Assembly (NCBI GenBank): GCA_017461585.1
Contig: JAFTYM010000047.1
Location: forward strand, 1 to 52,703
Length of the DNA: 52,703 nt
Source: Oscillospiraceae bacterium
GTDB taxonomy: Bacteria > Bacillota > Clostridia > Oscillospirales > Oscillospiraceae
Direction: 5' to 3'
Shown here: in pieces, positions 1-26,440 of the stretch
How the letters are laid out: every line of letters starts with the position of its first letter
Position numbering within the stretch: position 1 is the stretch's first letter
Translations under genes and position numbers: made by a program
Notes under the pieces: generated by a model
Databases searched by the model: none
What the model saw: only the letters and a program-made list of their open reading frames with translations
Told to the model about the DNA's origin: nothing

Positions 1-252
1 CTTGTCAGCCTCTGCAACATAAACTGTAATGTACTGCTCAAGGTAGGCACCGCCCTGCTCCATCTTGGAGTCAACAACTTCAACACCCTCAACCTTAAGT
101 CCGGTGATTGTGCCTGCGATCTGGCTGATGTTGATGGGAATCACGGTGCTGGCAGCTGCAGTACCATCTGTTCCTGTGGCAAGCGCACTCATCGGCAGCG
201 CGCCAAGAACGATGAGAACTACAAGCAGCAAGCTCAATAGTCTTTTCTTCAT
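1..252 (-). CDS. Secreted protein, N-terminal part only (runs off the window)
   Basis: The gene reads leftward out of the window, so only its first 84 codons are visible. The product starts MKKRLLSLLLVVLIVLGALP, a Sec signal peptide ending in SALA at about residue 26. An ordinary threonine/alanine-rich extracellular segment follows. The ATG is preceded by an AGGAGGTAAT Shine-Dalgarno sequence. I do not recognise a domain in what remains. It lies downstream of the HNH_repeat/DUF2292 genes on the same strand, but a strong terminator-type hairpin (325-403) separates them. It may therefore be a separate unit or the attenuated tail of that operon. Confidence 0.8.
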   Translation of the reverse strand, partial: MKKRLLSLLLVVLIVLGALPMSALATGTDGTAAASTVIPINISQIAGTITGLKVEGVEVVDSKMEQGGAYLEQYITVYVAEADK

Positions 253-324
253 GTTTGTTAATTACCTCCTATGGTATTAAATTTATTATCGTCGCAGTTT
301 GATGGGGGAACTGTTGACTTCTTG

Positions 325-403
325 AAAAAAAATAAAAGTCCGGCAGACAGGTCTCAGATGATTGCAGGTATTGCGCCCGCAACATACTTACCGTCTTCCG
401 AAC
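325..403 (-). terminator. Intrinsic terminator or attenuator with structured loop
   Basis: On the minus strand the segment 403-391 pairs with 350-338 over 12 bp with one mismatch, and is followed by a T-rich run (337-325). The 40-nt loop contains a second hairpin built on TTGC/GCAA. A short alternative hairpin (GAAC CTCG GTTC, 400-411) uses part of the same terminator stem. It ends the DUF2292 transcript and may attenuate the secreted-protein gene that starts 72 nt further on. Confidence 0.65.
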
Positions 404-441
404 CTCGGTTCTTCCGTTAGTTCTTTAATGACTATCTATAT

Positions 442-603
442 TTATTTGTCATTTGTAAGCCGGATACTTTTTCTTATCTCCTCTATACGTATAGGACCGT
501 TATCTTTTACTATGATCCTGACCTCACCATATCCGAGATCACGTATCTGAGTTATCAGCTTTTTCTCTGCTGACGTAAGTTCGATTATATTGGCACTATC
601 CAT
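442..603 (-). CDS. Small DUF2292 (YezD-like) protein
   Basis: This 53-residue gene starts with ATG at 603 and stops with TAA at 442. The product reads LTSAEKKLITQIRDLGYGEV near its N-terminus, then an alternating hydrophobic stretch and a basic RIEEIRKSIRL tail. This is the pattern of the small DUF2292/YezD family, whose function is unknown. It lies 19 bp downstream of the HNH_repeat gene, so the two are probably co-transcribed and would share control by the invertible promoter and riboswitch upstream. The Shine-Dalgarno sequence is weak (GGCGGAA). The family call rests on sequence pattern alone. Confidence 0.65.
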   Translation of the reverse strand: MDSANIIELTSAEKKLITQIRDLGYGEVRIIVKDNGPIRIEEIRKSIRLTNDK

Positions 604-622
604 TTATTTTCCGCCTACGATA

Positions 623-1342
623 TTATCTACACGCAGCTAAAACGAGCTCTCTGTATTCAGCTGTGCTTTCAACTCCGTCAAAATATGTATTCACCTGTTT
701 TTTTGAAGGCGGCTTCATTCCTTTCGGAAGGGGCAGCCCTGCAAGGGTCAGCATCAGCGCCCAGCTGATAAACCTTTCCCGCAGATACTCTCCGCCGATA
801 ACGTCTTTTGCCTGCGGTGTATAACCGAGCTCGGATGCCCGGTCTTTCACATATTTTAGAAGCTGTTCATCTGTGTCAGCCTTATGTTCTTCTCCCCATT
901 CGAGGTCTCTTTTCTTTTTCTGCTCAAACTCCACCTGCGCGATTTTGGATTTCTCCACACGCACCGCTTTTCTCTCTTCACGTGTATTCCTGTTTTCAGC
1001 TTTTCGCTGTTTTACCTGCCGCTTAAGTTCATCTTTGTATATCTTTCGTGTTTTAAGGGGAGGTGGGTAACCCGGGCTCGGCAGGCCAATCATTCCTACA
1101 GCTATTGACCAGTTTCCAAAACGCTGAGCAATAAAATTTCCGCCTATGATCTCTTCCCGGCACGGCGTATGTCCTATTTCCTCAGCACACTTGCGTATGT
1201 AATCAAGGAGCTGTTCTTTTGTATCTTCTGCGTGTTTGAGAGCGAACATCTCGTTTTTCTTTTTCAGCGCGGCAATTGTCCGCTTTTCAAGCTGACAATT
1301 TGTCCATTTATTTGCATTAAAATGTTTGTTTTCTTGTTTCAA
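623..1342 (-). CDS. Protein with two HNH_repeat (homing-endonuclease-associated) modules
   Basis: The 239-residue protein contains two copies of a roughly 50-residue module (about 42-90 and 157-207). Each runs EQLLxYxxxxAxELGxTP, then IIGG or VIGG, then RFxxW and AGLP/IGLP. This matches the homing endonuclease associated repeat, a putative DNA-binding helical module often found beside nucleases. The modules are joined by a highly charged, probably helical linker (95-150, rich in K, R and E). No HNH or other nuclease motif is visible, so a DNA-binding role is inferred. The start is TTG at 1342 with AAGGTG 9 nt upstream. It is the first gene after a cobalamin riboswitch and terminator, downstream of the invertible promoter. 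Confidence 0.75.
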   Translation of the reverse strand: MKQENKHFNANKWTNCQLEKRTIAALKKKNEMFALKHAEDTKEQLLDYIRKCAEEIGHTPCREEIIGGNFIAQRFGNWSIAVGMIGLPSPGYPPPLKTRKIYKDELKRQVKQRKAENRNTREERKAVRVEKSKIAQVEFEQKKKRDLEWGEEHKADTDEQLLKYVKDRASELGYTPQAKDVIGGEYLRERFISWALMLTLAGLPLPKGMKPPSKKQVNTYFDGVESTAEYRELVLAACR

Positions 1343-1466
1343 AACTGTTCCACCTTAGTAAAAAAGTAAATGATTTGACCTTTTTATACGGATAAGGAAC
1401 ACCACGATTATTTGCACACAGATATCGTATTGCTACGCTTAAAACTATCGATCTGGAAAAGGCAAA

Positions 1467-1501
1467 CAAAAAAGCCACATTAGCAAACCTGCTAATGCGA
1501 C
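1467..1501 (-). terminator. Intrinsic terminator of cobalamin riboswitch 1
   Basis: A 12-bp minus-strand stem (CATTAGCA/TGCTAATG core, 1474-1501, loop GGTT) is followed directly by TTTTTTG. It lies between the cobalamin riboswitch and the HNH_repeat gene, about 125 nt before the TTG start. It is the likely expression platform. Confidence 0.85.
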
Positions 1502-1564
1502 CGTCTTCTCGCCCCATGCTGTCCCTCATATTGTGTATTTTTGCGCACAAAGACACAATACGCC

Positions 1565-1785
1565 CTTCAGTCTCGATTACCGTCGGTATTCTGGCTCATG
1601 CATTGGAGAGCTTTTTATCGCTCCTGCGTCTGCTATTCAGCCTTCTCAGGTTTCCCCAATGACCGGATCACTCCACGAATATCAGACTCCTGCATATACA
1701 GCAACGGGCATTGCTCCGGATTCCAACCGGATTCCCTAATCCACCCGCCTGATTTAAAGTGCAAATGGACACGATGCAGCTTATT
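1565..1785 (-). promoter_or_regulatory. Cobalamin riboswitch 1 (upstream of HNH_repeat gene)
   Basis: The minus strand shows the ordered conserved boxes of the large cobalamin riboswitch class. They are GGGAATCCGGTTGGAATCC, then GCCCGTTGCTGTA (the CCCxxxACTGTxA box), then a GTCATTGG...GGGAAACC segment. The last is GAGCCAGAATACCGAC (the AGCCAGGAxACC box). A 5' P3-like stem TCCA/TGGA precedes the first box. Boundaries are approximate. It lies between the left inverted repeat of the invertible segment and the intrinsic terminator at 1467-1501, which implies shut-off of the downstream genes when cobalamin is bound. Confidence 0.85.
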
Positions 1786-1800
1786 CAGTTATTGGCATTT

Positions 1801-1824
1801 ACTACATAATTCTCATTATGTGGT
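1801..1824. repeat. Left inverted repeat (IRL) of invertible segment
   Basis: This 24-bp near-palindrome has 10-bp arms around a TCTC centre. It is the reverse complement of the right repeat (2031-2054) at 23 of 24 positions. The only difference is T for C at 1803. Because the arms are self-complementary, only the 4-bp centre (TCTC here, GAGA on the right) gives the sites a direction. That direction is inverted, as an inversion substrate of a tyrosine recombinase requires. Confidence 0.85.
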
Positions 1825-1849
1825 AAGACGCACTATCAATTGTACATAC

Positions 1850-1878
1850 ATTAAAGCACAACAACAATAATTATGCAA
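1850..1878 (-). promoter_or_regulatory. Sigma-A promoter inside the invertible segment
   Basis: On the minus strand: TTGCAT (1878-1873), a 17-bp spacer, and TTTAAT (1855-1850) with an extended -10 TGn. The predicted start is near 1843, so the transcript passes through IRL, then cobalamin riboswitch 1. No comparable promoter faces right inside the segment. Confidence 0.75.
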
Positions 1879-1928
1879 GTCCCTTTTAGAGCATTTGGCA
1901 AAAATCTTCATTTTTTTGTATGTTAACT

Positions 1929-1959
1929 ACACCCTCAAGCTAAAAAACAATGAGGGTGT
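1929..1959. terminator. Insulating stem-loop inside the invertible segment
   Basis: A 9-bp perfect stem (ACACCCTCA/TGAGGGTGT) with a 13-nt loop. It lies between the recombinase end and the internal promoter, so it may block read-through from the recombinase gene. It has no long T tract on either strand, so it is a weak terminator at best. Confidence 0.5.
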
Positions 1960-2030
1960 GTTTGCTATGCATAAAAGTACTGATATTTTGTAATTATATG
2001 GGTATTTGCCTCAATATTTAAGATTGGATT

Positions 2031-2054
2031 ACCACATAATGAGAATTATGTGGT
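2031..2054. repeat. Right inverted repeat (IRR), doubling as a rightward terminator
   Basis: A perfect palindrome with arms ACCACATAAT and ATTATGTGGT around GAGA. On the plus strand it is followed by TTTTTCTTTTTT (2053-2064), which makes a canonical intrinsic terminator in the rightward direction. If the segment flips, the promoter would fire right and the RNA would end here, before running antisense through the recombinase. IRL lacks a T tract and has a mismatched arm, so leftward RNA should read through. Confidence 0.8.
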
Positions 2055-2065
2055 TTTTCTTTTTT

Positions 2066-2905
2066 CTATACCACAAGCCCTAACCGTTCCATAGTTCTGC
2101 GGTGTTCAGCGCCTGTTGAGATAATATATATCCTCGTTGTGTTTATACTGCTGTGTCCAGGAATATCAGCAAGCTTCGCTATATCCTTTTCAGCTCGGTA
2201 GAAAGTACGTGCAAACAGTTTACGCAGATTGTGGGGAAACACCTTAGACGACGCCACCTTTGCCCTCGCACACAGCTTCTTCATCATTGACCAAATATTA
2301 CTGCGGTCTATTGGCTTTTCGTTTTTGGTGCGAAAAATGACGCCGCTTCTGATACCTGATTTCGCCGCATACTTCAGCAGCAGCTTTTTTAATTCCCCCG
2401 GTATGAATATCCTGCGGTTCTTTCCTTTGCATGCTACGCTGACAGTGCCTGACCGCACAGCTTCCACTGTGAAATATTTCAGTTCTGACACCCGTATTCC
2501 CGTTCCGCATATGGTCTTAATGATGAGCTGAAGCCGCGGTTGATTTGACGCTGCATTTACAAGGCGTATGTATTCTGACTTGGTGAGTTCTTTCTCCTCA
2601 GTGCAAAATACCTCTCTTTGTTGCTTAATGCTCTTTGTCTTACAGTCCTGCCACCCCATAAACTCAAAAAAGCTGTTTAACGATGCTATCTTGGAATTCA
2701 CAGAGCGCACAGCATATCCTTTCTGCACAAGATACTGCTTATATTCAACTACCAATTCTTTCGTTATCGGCTTATCCCCTGTAAATAGCGCAAAAGCGCA
2801 AATATCACGGCAATACTTCTCTGCCGTGACCGCGCTTTTTTCTTCCCCGATCAGGGCTTCCTTATACTTTTTCAGCGTACATGATGTGATAGTTCTGTTT
2901 TCCAT
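2066..2905 (-). CDS. Tyrosine site-specific recombinase (probable inverton invertase)
   Basis: The 279-residue protein has an N-terminal SAM-like core-binding domain (about 10-95) and a C-terminal catalytic domain. All catalytic residues of the family can be placed: R138 in GTGIRVSEL, K160/K162 in CKGKNRR, H225 and R228 in HNLRK, H251 in PGHSS, and nucleophile Y260 in TTRIYIIS. The start is ATG 2905 because AGGAGGG lies 7 nt upstream; an in-frame upstream ATG at 2956 has no such site. The stop codon is 12 bp from the right inverted repeat, so this enzyme is the obvious candidate to invert 1825-2030. Its mRNA leader carries cobalamin riboswitch 2 and a Shine-Dalgarno sequestering stem. Confidence 0.9.
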   Translation of the reverse strand: MENRTITSCTLKKYKEALIGEEKSAVTAEKYCRDICAFALFTGDKPITKELVVEYKQYLVQKGYAVRSVNSKIASLNSFFEFMGWQDCKTKSIKQQREVFCTEEKELTKSEYIRLVNAASNQPRLQLIIKTICGTGIRVSELKYFTVEAVRSGTVSVACKGKNRRIFIPGELKKLLLKYAAKSGIRSGVIFRTKNEKPIDRSNIWSMMKKLCARAKVASSKVFPHNLRKLFARTFYRAEKDIAKLADIPGHSSINTTRIYIISTGAEHRRTMERLGLVV

Positions 2906-2914
2906 TGTCTTTCC

Positions 2915-2962
2915 CTCCTGATTTATTTTACAGTTTTTTAATGGCTTGTTCCACATCAGGAG
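2915..2962 (-). promoter_or_regulatory. Shine-Dalgarno / anti-Shine-Dalgarno stem of the recombinase mRNA
   Basis: In the RNA, CUCCUGAU (2962-2955) is perfectly complementary to AUCAGGAG (2922-2915), the recombinase ribosome binding site. Two G-U pairs and a U-A pair extend it to about 11 bp, across a 32-nt loop. This is a classic translation-blocking expression platform just downstream of riboswitch 2. Confidence 0.75.
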
Positions 2963-2980
2963 AAATTATGCACACAGCTT

Positions 2981-3140
2981 TACCGCACCCGGTATCAAGG
3001 CGAGTGCGGTTCTGCAGCATACGGTGCGTGTCTGACTTATCTCCTTTTCGGAGCTTCACAGTGACCTGTTCGCAGGGACTTTCACCCCATTCCGTTTAAT
3101 CATCCTACCTTTAGCAGGACAAGCCGTATGTCTGTTTCTT
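2981..3140 (-). promoter_or_regulatory. Cobalamin riboswitch 2 (compact class), upstream of the recombinase
   Basis: The minus strand begins with a P1 arm CATACGG, closed about 90 nt later by CCGTATG. Between them are the conserved elements ACGGAATGGGGTGAAAGTCC, GGTCACTGTGAAG and GATAAGTCAGA. These are the GGGAAxxGGTG, ACTGTGA and AAGTCAGA boxes of cobalamin riboswitches. The peripheral domain is short (CTCC/GGAG hairpin only), as in the Cbl-II type. A 10-bp hairpin (ACCGCACTCG/CGGGTGCGGT) follows, then the anti-Shine-Dalgarno sequence. There is no T tract, so control is probably at translation. Confidence 0.8.
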
Positions 3141-3148
3141 GTGCTTTA

Positions 3149-3177
3149 ATTATAATCTTTGATATATCACTTTTCGA
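3149..3177 (-). promoter_or_regulatory. Sigma-A promoter of riboswitch 2 / recombinase transcript
   Basis: TCGAAA (3177-3172), 17-bp spacer, perfect TATAAT (3154-3149) on the minus strand. The start predicted near 3141 falls at the beginning of the riboswitch P1 region. Confidence 0.75.
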
Positions 3178-3217
3178 TGGTAATTTCTTCCAGCGCAGCT
3201 CTGCTCTCTGAGCATAA

Positions 3218-3252
3218 AAACGGCAGTCTCTTAGGAAAAGAGACTGCCGTTT
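3218..3252 (-). terminator. Terminator after the DUF2284 gene
   Basis: A 15-bp perfect stem (AAACGGCAGTCTCTT and its complement) with a 5-nt loop, about 27 bp after the DUF2284 stop. It is palindromic with A/T flanks on both sides. It separates the DUF2284 transcript from the recombinase promoter. Confidence 0.8.
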
Positions 3253-3278
3253 AAGGCTCATATCTGAATTATAATGTC

Positions 3279-3857
3279 CTAAGCTTCATGAAATGCAACC
3301 ATTCCATATAAGTAGAGTTTGCCCTGTGTCCATGCAAATTCCAAGCCGCATCTTTTCGCAAGTTTTGCCACATCTATGCAATATGCCGACATGCAGCTTA
3401 TTTGTTTTTCCGGATGCGCACACGGCAGACCATCTTTTAATTTGCACGGATCGCATATAGGACATCCGTTGTATCCTGAACAAAAGCCTTCATAACCCAG
3501 CTTGCGCATTTTGTCTGCAAGCCGCAAAACCGCATTATTGTGTGACTTCTTTGCATACTCTACTGCCGGTATATCGTCATAGCTTTCAACACTCCATACC
3601 GTTTGTACTATAAGAGCTCTGTTTTCCCTCATGAGCTTCTCACGTAGCTCTTCTACCGTACCGCAGTCCGGAGGACATGAGTAGTTGGCGCCGTATTTGC
3701 CGCATAAGTTTTCTTCGCAATATGCTCTGAAGCTCGGCTCTATCGGTATCTGATCTACATCGATAAGTGCAGCTGCAAAGCCCTCTTCTTTAGCTAAATC
3801 CAGCAGTTCATTGTCTTTCATTAACATCTTCCTTGCATATTCAAGTATTGTCATCAT
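3279..3857 (-). CDS. DUF2284 cysteine-rich predicted metal-binding protein
   Basis: The product has the DUF2284 pattern. FRAYCEENLCGKYGANYSCP is followed by PDCG, and a C-terminal group reads CSGYNGCPICDPCKLKDGLP then CAHP, with further cysteines in ISCMSAYC. That is over a dozen cysteines, which suggests an Fe-S or other metal site; the biochemical function is unknown. The start is ambiguous. ATG 3857 has AGGAAGG 5 nt upstream, while ATG 3821 (MKDNELLDLAKEEGF) has AAGGAAG 6 nt upstream and fits the usual family N-terminus better. The gene is alone behind cobalamin riboswitch 3 and its terminator, so its role should be tied to B12 supply or a B12-dependent process. Confidence 0.8.
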   Translation of the reverse strand: MMTILEYARKMLMKDNELLDLAKEEGFAAALIDVDQIPIEPSFRAYCEENLCGKYGANYSCPPDCGTVEELREKLMRENRALIVQTVWSVESYDDIPAVEYAKKSHNNAVLRLADKMRKLGYEGFCSGYNGCPICDPCKLKDGLPCAHPEKQISCMSAYCIDVAKLAKRCGLEFAWTQGKLYLYGMVAFHEA

Positions 3858-3926
3858 CATTACCTTCCTATATTTCACACCACTACATTCTTACCAGCAT
3901 TTCAGGCCACTTAAAACTCCCATTTG

Positions 3927-3960
3927 CCAAAAAAGCGCCGCAGAGGACGCTCTTTTGGCG
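3927..3960. repeat. 12-bp inverted repeat in the DUF2284 leader
   Basis: GCCAAAAAAGCG and CGCTCTTTTGGC flank a 10-nt loop, with one G-T pair when read on the minus strand. It lies in the 5' leader between riboswitch 3 and the gene. No T tract follows the stem outside it, so a terminator role is doubtful. Confidence 0.5.
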
Positions 3961-4175
3961 CAAACAGGATTTAAGAAGGGTACACAGCATAAAAGGAGTG
4001 GGATATGTGCTGATTTTGAGGTTTGGGCAGATGTAGAAATCACTCGTCCGCCCTTTGAGCTATATGATACACCGGGATGTAGACGGGCAGCCAAGGAGAG
4101 ATGAACAGCTCCTTCTGTTTACCCGTAACGCTGTACCCAATCTACAGCTTTTAATAAACCGCATGATGCGGAGTA

Positions 4176-4217
4176 TGCAAAAAATAAATGGCTATGACAA
4201 CAAATGTTGCCACAGCC
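4176..4217 (-). terminator. Intrinsic terminator of cobalamin riboswitch 3
   Basis: The minus-strand stem GGCTGTGGCAACA/TGTTGTCATAGCC with a 2-nt loop is followed by ATTTATTTTTTG. It lies 30 nt after the riboswitch and about 320 nt before the DUF2284 start, so it is the probable expression platform. Confidence 0.85.
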
Positions 4218-4247
4218 GTTTTTCTGCGCAATAATATAACAAAGCCT

Positions 4248-4445
4248 TTCTTGTAGGTCTTCTGACTTGTGCCTTTGGGAGTATTTTAATCTCCTGCGTA
4301 TTTGCTCTGCCTTCCCAGTTTCCCAGTGACTGACTTTCATCAAAAGAGCAAATACTCCGGCACTTACAGCGGCGGTTACCGTTTGGGATTTGCACCCACT
4401 TCCCTTGTCCATTTTCCTTCCTATACGGTAAGGAAACCACAAGAA
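4248..4445 (-). promoter_or_regulatory. Cobalamin riboswitch 3 (upstream of DUF2284)
   Basis: All conserved boxes of the large cobalamin riboswitch are visible on the minus strand. They are AAGGGAAGTGGGTGCAAATC, ACCGCCGCTGTAAG, GTCACTGGGAAACTGGGAAG and CAAGTCAGAAGACCTAC. P1 is TTCTTGT/ACAAGAA at the two ends, and a long peripheral stem (GTATTTGCTC/GAGCAAATAC) is also present. The clarity of the boxes makes this the most certain of the three. Confidence 0.95.
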
Positions 4446-4459
4446 CTATCTTTACCATA

Positions 4460-4488
4460 AGATTACAACTTTATATTTATTGTGTCAA
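4460..4488 (-). promoter_or_regulatory. Sigma-A promoter of the riboswitch 3 transcript
   Basis: Perfect TTGACA (4488-4483), 17-bp spacer, weak TAATCT (4465-4460) on the minus strand, immediately upstream of the riboswitch P1. Confidence 0.6.
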
Positions 4489-4584
4489 AGCAATATTTAT
4501 CATAAATTGTAAAAATCTTACGATTTCTAAATATTTTCCAAAAACCCATGTATTACTTTACTAAATAAGTGTTGTACAAACTGC

Positions 4585-4905
4585 TCAAGTATGGAAGAGA
4601 TTATCTATCCCAGCAAATATTTGATGACTTGACTCTATACACTGTGCCTGACCTTCAATTGCGCTTCTGGTTTTATCAGAGGATGACATAAGCGAAATAG
4701 TCTCTATTTGTACAAACTTTTTAAGAACTCTGTTAACAGTTATTTTGGAGACTCTCCATCATATAGAAAGCTCACTGTAGGCAACCAGCGAAGAGCTTGT
4801 GCCGTCAATACAATGATACGAGATGCGGAAGCTTGCGTAGCTGCACAGTACTGCGTAATAAAAAAGTCCGGAGCTTCCGTTTGTGCGGATGCTTCGGTCT
4901 TCCAT
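4585..4905 (-). pseudogene. Possible decayed gene remnant (one frame, one internal TGA)
   Basis: One minus-strand frame runs from ATG 4905 for 106 codons, broken by a single TGA (4761-4759). The first part reads as an ordinary protein (FRISYHCIDGTSSSLVAYSE). The second part contains VLKKFVQIETISLMSSSDKT, then RSAIEGQAQCIESSHQIFAG. That helical pattern resembles the tail of a methyl-accepting chemotaxis protein signalling domain, but the likeness is weak. No Shine-Dalgarno sequence precedes the ATG. It fills the otherwise empty space between the groEL terminator and the riboswitch 3 promoter. It may be chance; the other strand is also open over part of this stretch. Confidence 0.25.
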
Positions 4906-4913
4906 TGTAAACA

Positions 4914-4947
4914 AAGGACACTACTCATACATGCGAGTAGTGTCCTT
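4914..4947 (-). terminator. Terminator after groEL
   Basis: A 13-bp perfect stem AAGGACACTACTC/GAGTAGTGTCCTT with an 8-nt loop and TTTGTTT following on the minus strand, 88 bp after the groEL stop. Confidence 0.8.
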
Positions 4948-5035
4948 GTTCTACACCTTTAGCGCCTTATTTCGTGGCGTAAATTGCGCGCAATTTTTCC
5001 GCAAAACCTGTACTTTCAAGGTTTCAGCGTTATGT

Positions 5036-25749: not shown

Positions 25750-25762
25750 ATTATTTTAAAAA

Positions 25763-26406
25763 GCAGCGGCAACAAACAGAGTAAATCTTACGGCTTAGGT
25801 ACGGGCTGGATTTCCCCCGCGTCTACCCTTCGTTGCCGATGAGGGCGGTTTCCCTTTAAAGACACGTTCGGAGCGTTGCCGGTTCCGCTGCCCGACTGCC
25901 ACTTAGTCCGCACTGTAATCCTCTATTTGTCCTCTTCTAACTGACAGCCTAGGTGTTTTCCACTACAGTCTTACCGTTTCTTAGCCTCTTTTGCAGAAAG
26001 TATTTCAAGGAGCAATGACATCACCCGTCCGGCCGCGACAAGGCGTGCCTGGTCTTCTATCCGCACAGTCCACTCAAGGCAGGCTACTCTGCACACAGCA
26101 CAAGCTTTCGCCATTATATTGCGCACCGCATTGCAGGTCAAACACTGACCCGTAGACAGATCGATATAATTACCGCTTAGGGAGTACGTCTGCCCACGTG
26201 ATCAGGCCTCCACATAAACAGGGTCGCGTCTTCCATGCCATTGCAAGGCGCCCTGAGTATGCAAGCGTGAAACACGCTTCCCCACAGCATCCACCCCAAA
26301 CTGGGCGTTCAAAGCAGACACAATGGGTTTCATAGATATGCCCTTCAAAGGATTTTTAGGCCCTTCCTGAAAACGGCAGTACCGACTAGGATACTGCGCC
26401 GCTGTT
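25763..26406 (-). ncRNA. ole: OLE RNA (ornate, large, extremophilic)
   Basis: About 640 nt without a normal gene lie directly upstream of oapA in the order OLE-oapA-dxs-tlyA-nadK-argR-recN, the classic OLE neighbourhood. The two ends pair as CAGCGGC (26404-26398) with GCCGCTG (25770-25764). The body is rich in purine loops and local stems such as GGGCGTTCAAAG and GAAGCGTGTTTCACGCTTGC. OLE acts as a ribonucleoprotein at the membrane with OapA and has been linked to stress adaptation. The call rests on synteny, length and structure, not on an alignment. Confidence 0.88.
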
Positions 26407-26411
26407 TTGAT

Positions 26412-26440
26412 ATTTTAGCAAATCTATATTCAGTTTTCAA
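26412..26440 (-). promoter_or_regulatory. Sigma-A promoter of OLE RNA and its operon
   Basis: TTGAAA (26440-26435), 17-bp spacer, TAAAAT (26417-26412) on the minus strand. The predicted start is about 26405, exactly where the OLE terminal stem begins. Confidence 0.85.

Follow-up and report, generated by a model that had tools for sequence, protein, structure and literature searches.

The gene of a tyrosine recombinase in an Oscillospiraceae bacterium, positioned next to a presumed invertible DNA segment, is preceded by a leader whose assignment to the cobalamin-class aptamers is well supported by sequence comparison. Because this leader looks like a genuine B12-sensing RNA, B12 supply may set the frequency at which the segment is flipped, a link that we infer and find attractive. 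The reading that we favor, in which the compact riboswitch controls recombinase translation so that B12 scarcity raises the flipping of the 202-nt segment, has in our judgment about an even chance of being correct. The locus lies on contig C33 of a 2.07-Mb genome (54 contigs, 79% complete), here analyzed as a window of 52,703 nt, the whole stretch of DNA to which positions refer, and all genes discussed at the locus are on the minus strand (Table 1). An earlier note on this DNA had described the leader as a second cobalamin riboswitch; its place on the recombinase leader stands, but it is in fact one of three within 3 kb.

Table 1. Features of the recombinase locus in order of transcription (window positions).
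Feature	Position	Strand	Evidence or remark
Cobalamin riboswitch	4459-4235	-	73.8 bits; first in transcription order
DUF2284 gene	3878-3279	-	after riboswitch 4459-4235, ahead of recombinase leader
Promoter-like site of recombinase leader	3149..3177	-	TCGAAA (3177-3172), 17 nt, TATAAT (3154-3149); 10/12 consensus positions
Compact cobalamin aptamer with P13 hairpin	2976..3143	-	RF00174 at 3143-3006; R1 at 3098-2976
Anti-SD and adjoining segment	2943..2963	-	pairs with SD or, as predicted antisequestor, with 3045-3040, 3052-3049 and 3125-3119
Shine-Dalgarno (SD) region ATCAGGAGGG of recombinase gene	2913..2922	-	sequence, fold
Tyrosine recombinase, 279 aa	2066..2905	-	PF00589, 2.1e-21; 4a8e XerC-like chain, 5.4e-21; homologue alignment
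Inverted repeat, recombinase-proximal arm	2029..2054	-	26 nt, 96% complementary to distal arm; site core GAGA
Presumed invertible segment between arms, 202 nt	1827..2028	-	no clear promoter call in the window's copy
Inverted repeat, distal arm	1801..1826	-	26 nt, pairs with 2054-2029
Full-size cobalamin riboswitch behind presumed invertible segment	1564..1791	-	RF00174, 49.9 bits
Terminator-like hairpin near riboswitch 1791-1564	1502-1473	-	2 such in stretch, 1.9 expected
HNH_repeat gene, first ORF behind riboswitch 1791-1564	623..1342	-	PF18780, 2.7e-21
DUF2292-like ORF, after HNH_repeat gene		-	0.1 bit under its cut-off
ORF with signal-peptide-like start (by eye), cut by contig end		-	last in transcription order, after DUF2292-like ORF

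The elements that had been read in the leader are confirmed. The core is closed by P1, with seven intact pairs between CATACGG (3130-3124) and CCGTATG (3024-3018), followed by an intact P2 of nine pairs (3122-3114/3108-3100); both conserved boxes, CACTGTGA (3063-3056) and AAGTCAGA (3038-3031), are in place, and P4 (within 3088-3075), L5 (3071-3063), P7 (3053-3041) and P13 (3010-2982, about 10 pairs, with L13 at 3001-2991) are all present. The L5-L13 kissing contact joins AGGU (3067-3064) to GCCU (3001-2998) by four pairs, one of them G-U. The leader folds with a z-score of -4.1, and none of 200 shuffles was equally stable. The TATAAT promoter that had been placed before the core is likewise found there; taken alone it is not above chance, with 3 promoter-like sites in the 2-kb stretch as compared with 4.2 expected from shuffles.

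The check with RF00174 that the earlier note had proposed did return a match to the leader, although at 24.5 bits (E = 3.3e-4 for 651 nt and 4227 families) it falls below the gathering score of 31.5. Scanning the leader against all of Rfam, RF01482 and RF01689 included, added one lower-scoring, overlapping match from the same clan (family unnamed). When RF00174 was run over the whole genome at E 0.001, the recombinase leader was not among the 8 matches listed. The genome holds a second low-scoring compact match (C47:19985-19856; 25.9 bits, also under the cut-off); there the compact subtype stands ahead of an operon for B12 uptake, which encodes DUF4430, a toroid-fold domain, an ABC transporter and PF02277, presumably the CobT family.

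These two compact RNAs share CACTGTGA-P7-ATAAGTCAGAYAC. A search of 300 genomes of the bacterial family for the pattern CACTGTGAN{8,30}AAGTCAGANAC gave 50 matches in 42 genomes, and none for the reversed pattern. The surroundings of the matches agree beyond the pattern itself (GGAA, P4, a GCGAGTCGGT stretch and a hairpin with GCCG in its loop), and the genes downstream, judged by eye, encode lipoproteins, a CobT-like protein and precorrin-methyltransferase-like proteins. With the window's own match kept out by design and 17 others unused, 32 of these compact cobalamin riboswitches were aligned and built into a covariance model, R1 (a MAFFT alignment of just two aptamers had misplaced P1 and P2). 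Across P3, P4, P7, P13 and the L5-L13 contact, 95.5% of the cells in this alignment pair, and covariation is 0.549 as compared with a mean of 0.194 in shuffled alignments and at most 0.128 when the pairing is slid. R1 scores 108 bits on the C47 riboswitch and 66.9 bits on the recombinase leader (E = 1.1e-15; 8.7 bits for the runner-up in the window), which speaks against a chance match behind the weak Rfam score, a reading that we reject. The R1 evidence is partly circular, because its members were gathered with two boxes common to the leader; P4, L5 and L13 lie outside the gathering pattern, and P1 and P2 outside the model. The sub-cut-off RF00174 match, the covariation of the subgroup and the R1 score agree with the cobalamin class that the earlier note had assigned.

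Downstream of the aptamer, the 8-nt anti-SD that had been claimed is found as CTCCTGAT (2962-2955), facing ATCAGGAG (2922-2915) ahead of the start ATG (2905-2903). As stand-alone evidence this complementarity is weak; by a loose measure, a complement of at least 8 nt to the ribosome-site region occurs in 17 of 79 homologous recombinase leaders (the best 80 homologues less one without a usable start). An in-frame ATG at 2956-2954, which overlaps the anti-SD, would give a 296-aa ORF; homologues align from the start at 2905. In the minimum-energy fold the anti-SD pairs with the SD, and the SD bases have an unpaired probability of at most 0.09 in the ligand-free ensemble. A predicted antisequestor would instead leave the SD free by pairing 2963-2958 with 3045-3040 and 2953-2950 with 3052-3049, both in P7, and 2949-2943 with 3125-3119 in P1/P2. 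When the transcript is cut at 2921, so that it does not yet contain the SD, this fold is computed at -65.8 kcal/mol (with the helix enforced), as compared with -66.0 for the unconstrained minimum and -61.1 for the canonical aptamer, the latter 4.7 kcal/mol above it when neither ligand nor tertiary contacts are counted; its energy was matched by 10 of 500 loop shuffles, in a test devised after the fold was seen. Once the SD is transcribed, sequestration is favored over the antisequestor by 9-10 kcal/mol, and the leader may therefore be OFF regardless of ligand unless its folding is kinetic. These folds fit a kinetic, ligand-OFF translational switch, of which the energies are no proof, and it is as a modelled prediction that we propose translational control through the anti-SD. 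In cobalamin riboswitches the kissing loop usually gates P13; because P13 is about 10 pairs long here, that gating may not apply.

The leader also departs from its relatives. Only two of the four P3 pairs are standard, as compared with four pairs in 32/32 R1 members; L5 reads AGGU where the first position is C in 30/32 relatives (mostly CGGU), and L13 reads GCCU where the last is G in 26/32 (mostly GCCG). As both loops have changed, the contact still pairs. The half-lost P3 and diverged L5 could mean that a compact cobalamin riboswitch landed before the recombinase and lost its B12 sensing, the anti-SD hairpin now serving to keep recombinase low. The leader's rank of 27th among the 32 R1 matches found in 24 of 394 genomes of the order, the low accessibility of the SD without ligand and the single occurrence of the pairing (see below) also suit such decay. 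We nevertheless regard it as unlikely, given that the boxes, P1, P2, P4 and P7 are intact and that the L5-L13 contact has been kept through paired changes. The regulatory reading is plausible, with the boxes and the kissing loop speaking for it and the weak P3, the long P13 and the stable default sequestration against it.

That the downstream gene encodes a tyrosine recombinase is borne out by its Pfam, solved-structure and homologue matches (Table 1). Its nearest solved structures by sequence are the XerC-like chain and a XerA chain, and residues R138, K160/K162, H225, R228, H251 and Y260, which we take to be catalytic, are invariant in 12 sequences; its scores stay far below the XerC and XerD NCBIfam equivalog cut-offs (94.3 of 335.15 and 96.1 of 329.6 bits). 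Homologues in 60 related genomes reach 60% identity, one genome (G024) carrying 15 copies at 46-49%, and a viral scan gave one relative at 65% and 23 at 39% or less. The genome of the window itself has a second copy, 60% identical; behind the cassette of this copy (C54; L062 8039-18001), where R1 finds no match, come an ORF with a DUF4379 zinc finger and the gene of a secreted protein, at least 2542 aa long, that has VWA and Ig-like domains.

The inverted-repeat pair directly downstream of the recombinase (2054-2029/1826-1801), ahead of the riboswitch at 1791-1564, is of a kind common beside this family. Among 63 of the best 80 homologues, drawn from named genomes and having at least 400 nt downstream (the other 17 were left out), 47 are followed by two ACATAA(N6)TTATGT sites in inverted order. 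A promoter (at least 9/12) lies 30-50 nt from a segment end in 34 of these 47 segments, as compared with 137 of 940 shuffled segments, and points only away from the recombinase in 7, only toward it in 25 and both ways in 2; both directions among the homologues fit an invertible promoter. The window's own segment has no clear promoter of this kind. Downstream of one homologue (L096) are perfect inverted arms of 65 nt with two site copies each. At a locus of another genome (G039), a homologous recombinase is followed after about 300 nt by a c-di-GMP-I riboswitch (L043 2420-2493; 54 bits), in the position that the cobalamin riboswitch 1791-1564 has here; a search of that locus for exact inverted repeats of 14 nt gave none.

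It could also be that the leader is a B12-repressed riboswitch but leaves the switching rate independent of B12, either because recombinase level is not limiting or because the enzyme acts chiefly elsewhere. No inversion was observed in the single assembly, and, the genome being 79% complete, other recombinase sites may be missing. We hold this to be improbable: in the assembly the exact site pattern CACATAATNNNNATTATGT is present only in this pair (core GAGA) and in the second recombinase's pair, whose core differs (CAGC), and sites beside the gene are a trait of the recombinase family.

The pairing of riboswitch and recombinase is a single case in one incomplete genome within our sampling, and no second genome supports its selection. 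Near the best 80 homologues, with at least 335 nt upstream of each, the best R1 match was 11.0 bits (E 4.6), which rules out the riboswitch as a general trait of the recombinase family; in a set of 41 loci nothing beyond the window's own locus was significant (14.1 bits or less). Rfam at gathering scores gave only tRNAs and one tmRNA at 57 of the best 80 homologue loci, and at E 0.1 no cobalamin match at 20 loci around recombinases. Conversely, tblastn at E 0.001 found no relative of the recombinase within about 1-2.5 kb downstream of 50 other compact-riboswitch loci. Searches of a collection of open-access papers brought up no riboswitch on a recombinase itself.

The DUF2284 gene, for a predicted metal-binding protein, lies about 360 nt behind the strong riboswitch that opens the locus (window 3279-4459), and tandem cobalamin riboswitches occur twice more in this genome, two on C35 (7810-8614) and three on C36 (12540-13590). 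Behind the tandem riboswitches (window 1-5000, C35 and C36) lie ORFs of the DUF2292-like or HNH_repeat kind and genes for secreted proteins; one of the latter, on C36, encodes 3393 aa and has both Ig-like and dockerin domains. Scanning 240-1500 against Rfam up to E 1 gave no match; a full-length OLE RNA lies at window 25750-26418 (395.5 bits).

In the reading that we favor, the recombinase mRNA would start with a compact cobalamin riboswitch acting on translation. With corrinoid absent, the empty aptamer would offer its P1, P2 and P7 strands to 2963-2943 for pairing, leaving the ribosome site open, and recombinase would be made; with corrinoid bound, the aptamer and the L5-L13 contact would lock, and the released 2963-2943 would pair with the SD region, lowering translation. 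The recombinase would act on its two repeats and invert the 202 nt between them, so that a promoter would come to face the riboswitch 1791-1564 and its operon or to point away from them. Since recombinase translation would fall with corrinoid, B12 scarcity would raise the flipping rate and also the output of those cells in which the promoter is directed outward. In the riboswitches of env8 and E. coli btuB an SD hairpin is reported to be steered by the kissing loop, and one activating corrinoid riboswitch is also reported (PMC10653944). As such a riboswitch exists and folding energies are no proof, the sign of the response here is one that we infer, repression of recombinase translation by B12 being the most likely. 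The opposite sign, corrinoid raising recombinase synthesis and inversion being frequent when B12 is plentiful, has that report and the SD-sequestering default fold in its favor, and seems very improbable against a predicted antisequestor that would exclude the bound state because it is built from P1, P2 and P7 strands of the aptamer itself.

More tentatively, at somewhat short of an even chance, the locus would form a nutrient-gated phase-variation cassette, in which the first riboswitch sets recombinase supply, and hence inversion rate, the second gates the output of the flipped promoter, and vitamin scarcity switches on bet-hedging. If B12 does act in this way, a metabolite-binding RNA placed directly before a recombinase gene would make the rate of programmed DNA rearrangement depend on a nutrient, and cobalamin riboswitches would gain another gene class. 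The rate of phase variation would be tunable with one small molecule, so that whether cells adjust their frequency of diversification would become directly testable.

Like the compact members of RF00174, with their short P7 and L5-L13 kissing loop, the leader has the core boxes, P4, P7, P13 and the kissing loop, and it sits upstream of the gene that it should control; unlike them, it stands on a recombinase rather than on B12 genes and has a weak P3, a long P13 and a sub-cut-off score. With the phase-variation cassettes of the best 80 tyrosine recombinase homologues the locus shares the inverted site pair just downstream of the recombinase, to which a promoter near a segment end is often added in those cassettes; it differs from them in its compact cobalamin riboswitch, of which the R1 search found none near the 80. 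In C. difficile flgB and cmrRST (PMC5386303, PMC8844915), c-di-GMP riboswitches precede RecV-inverted elements and act on the output operon. The likeness lies in a metabolite-binding leader (here riboswitch 1791-1564) and an invertible element placed before one operon. The two arrangements differ in ligand class, c-di-GMP there and cobalamin here, and in order: in C. difficile the riboswitch is upstream of the element, whereas here riboswitch 1791-1564 lies behind the segment and another stands on the recombinase.
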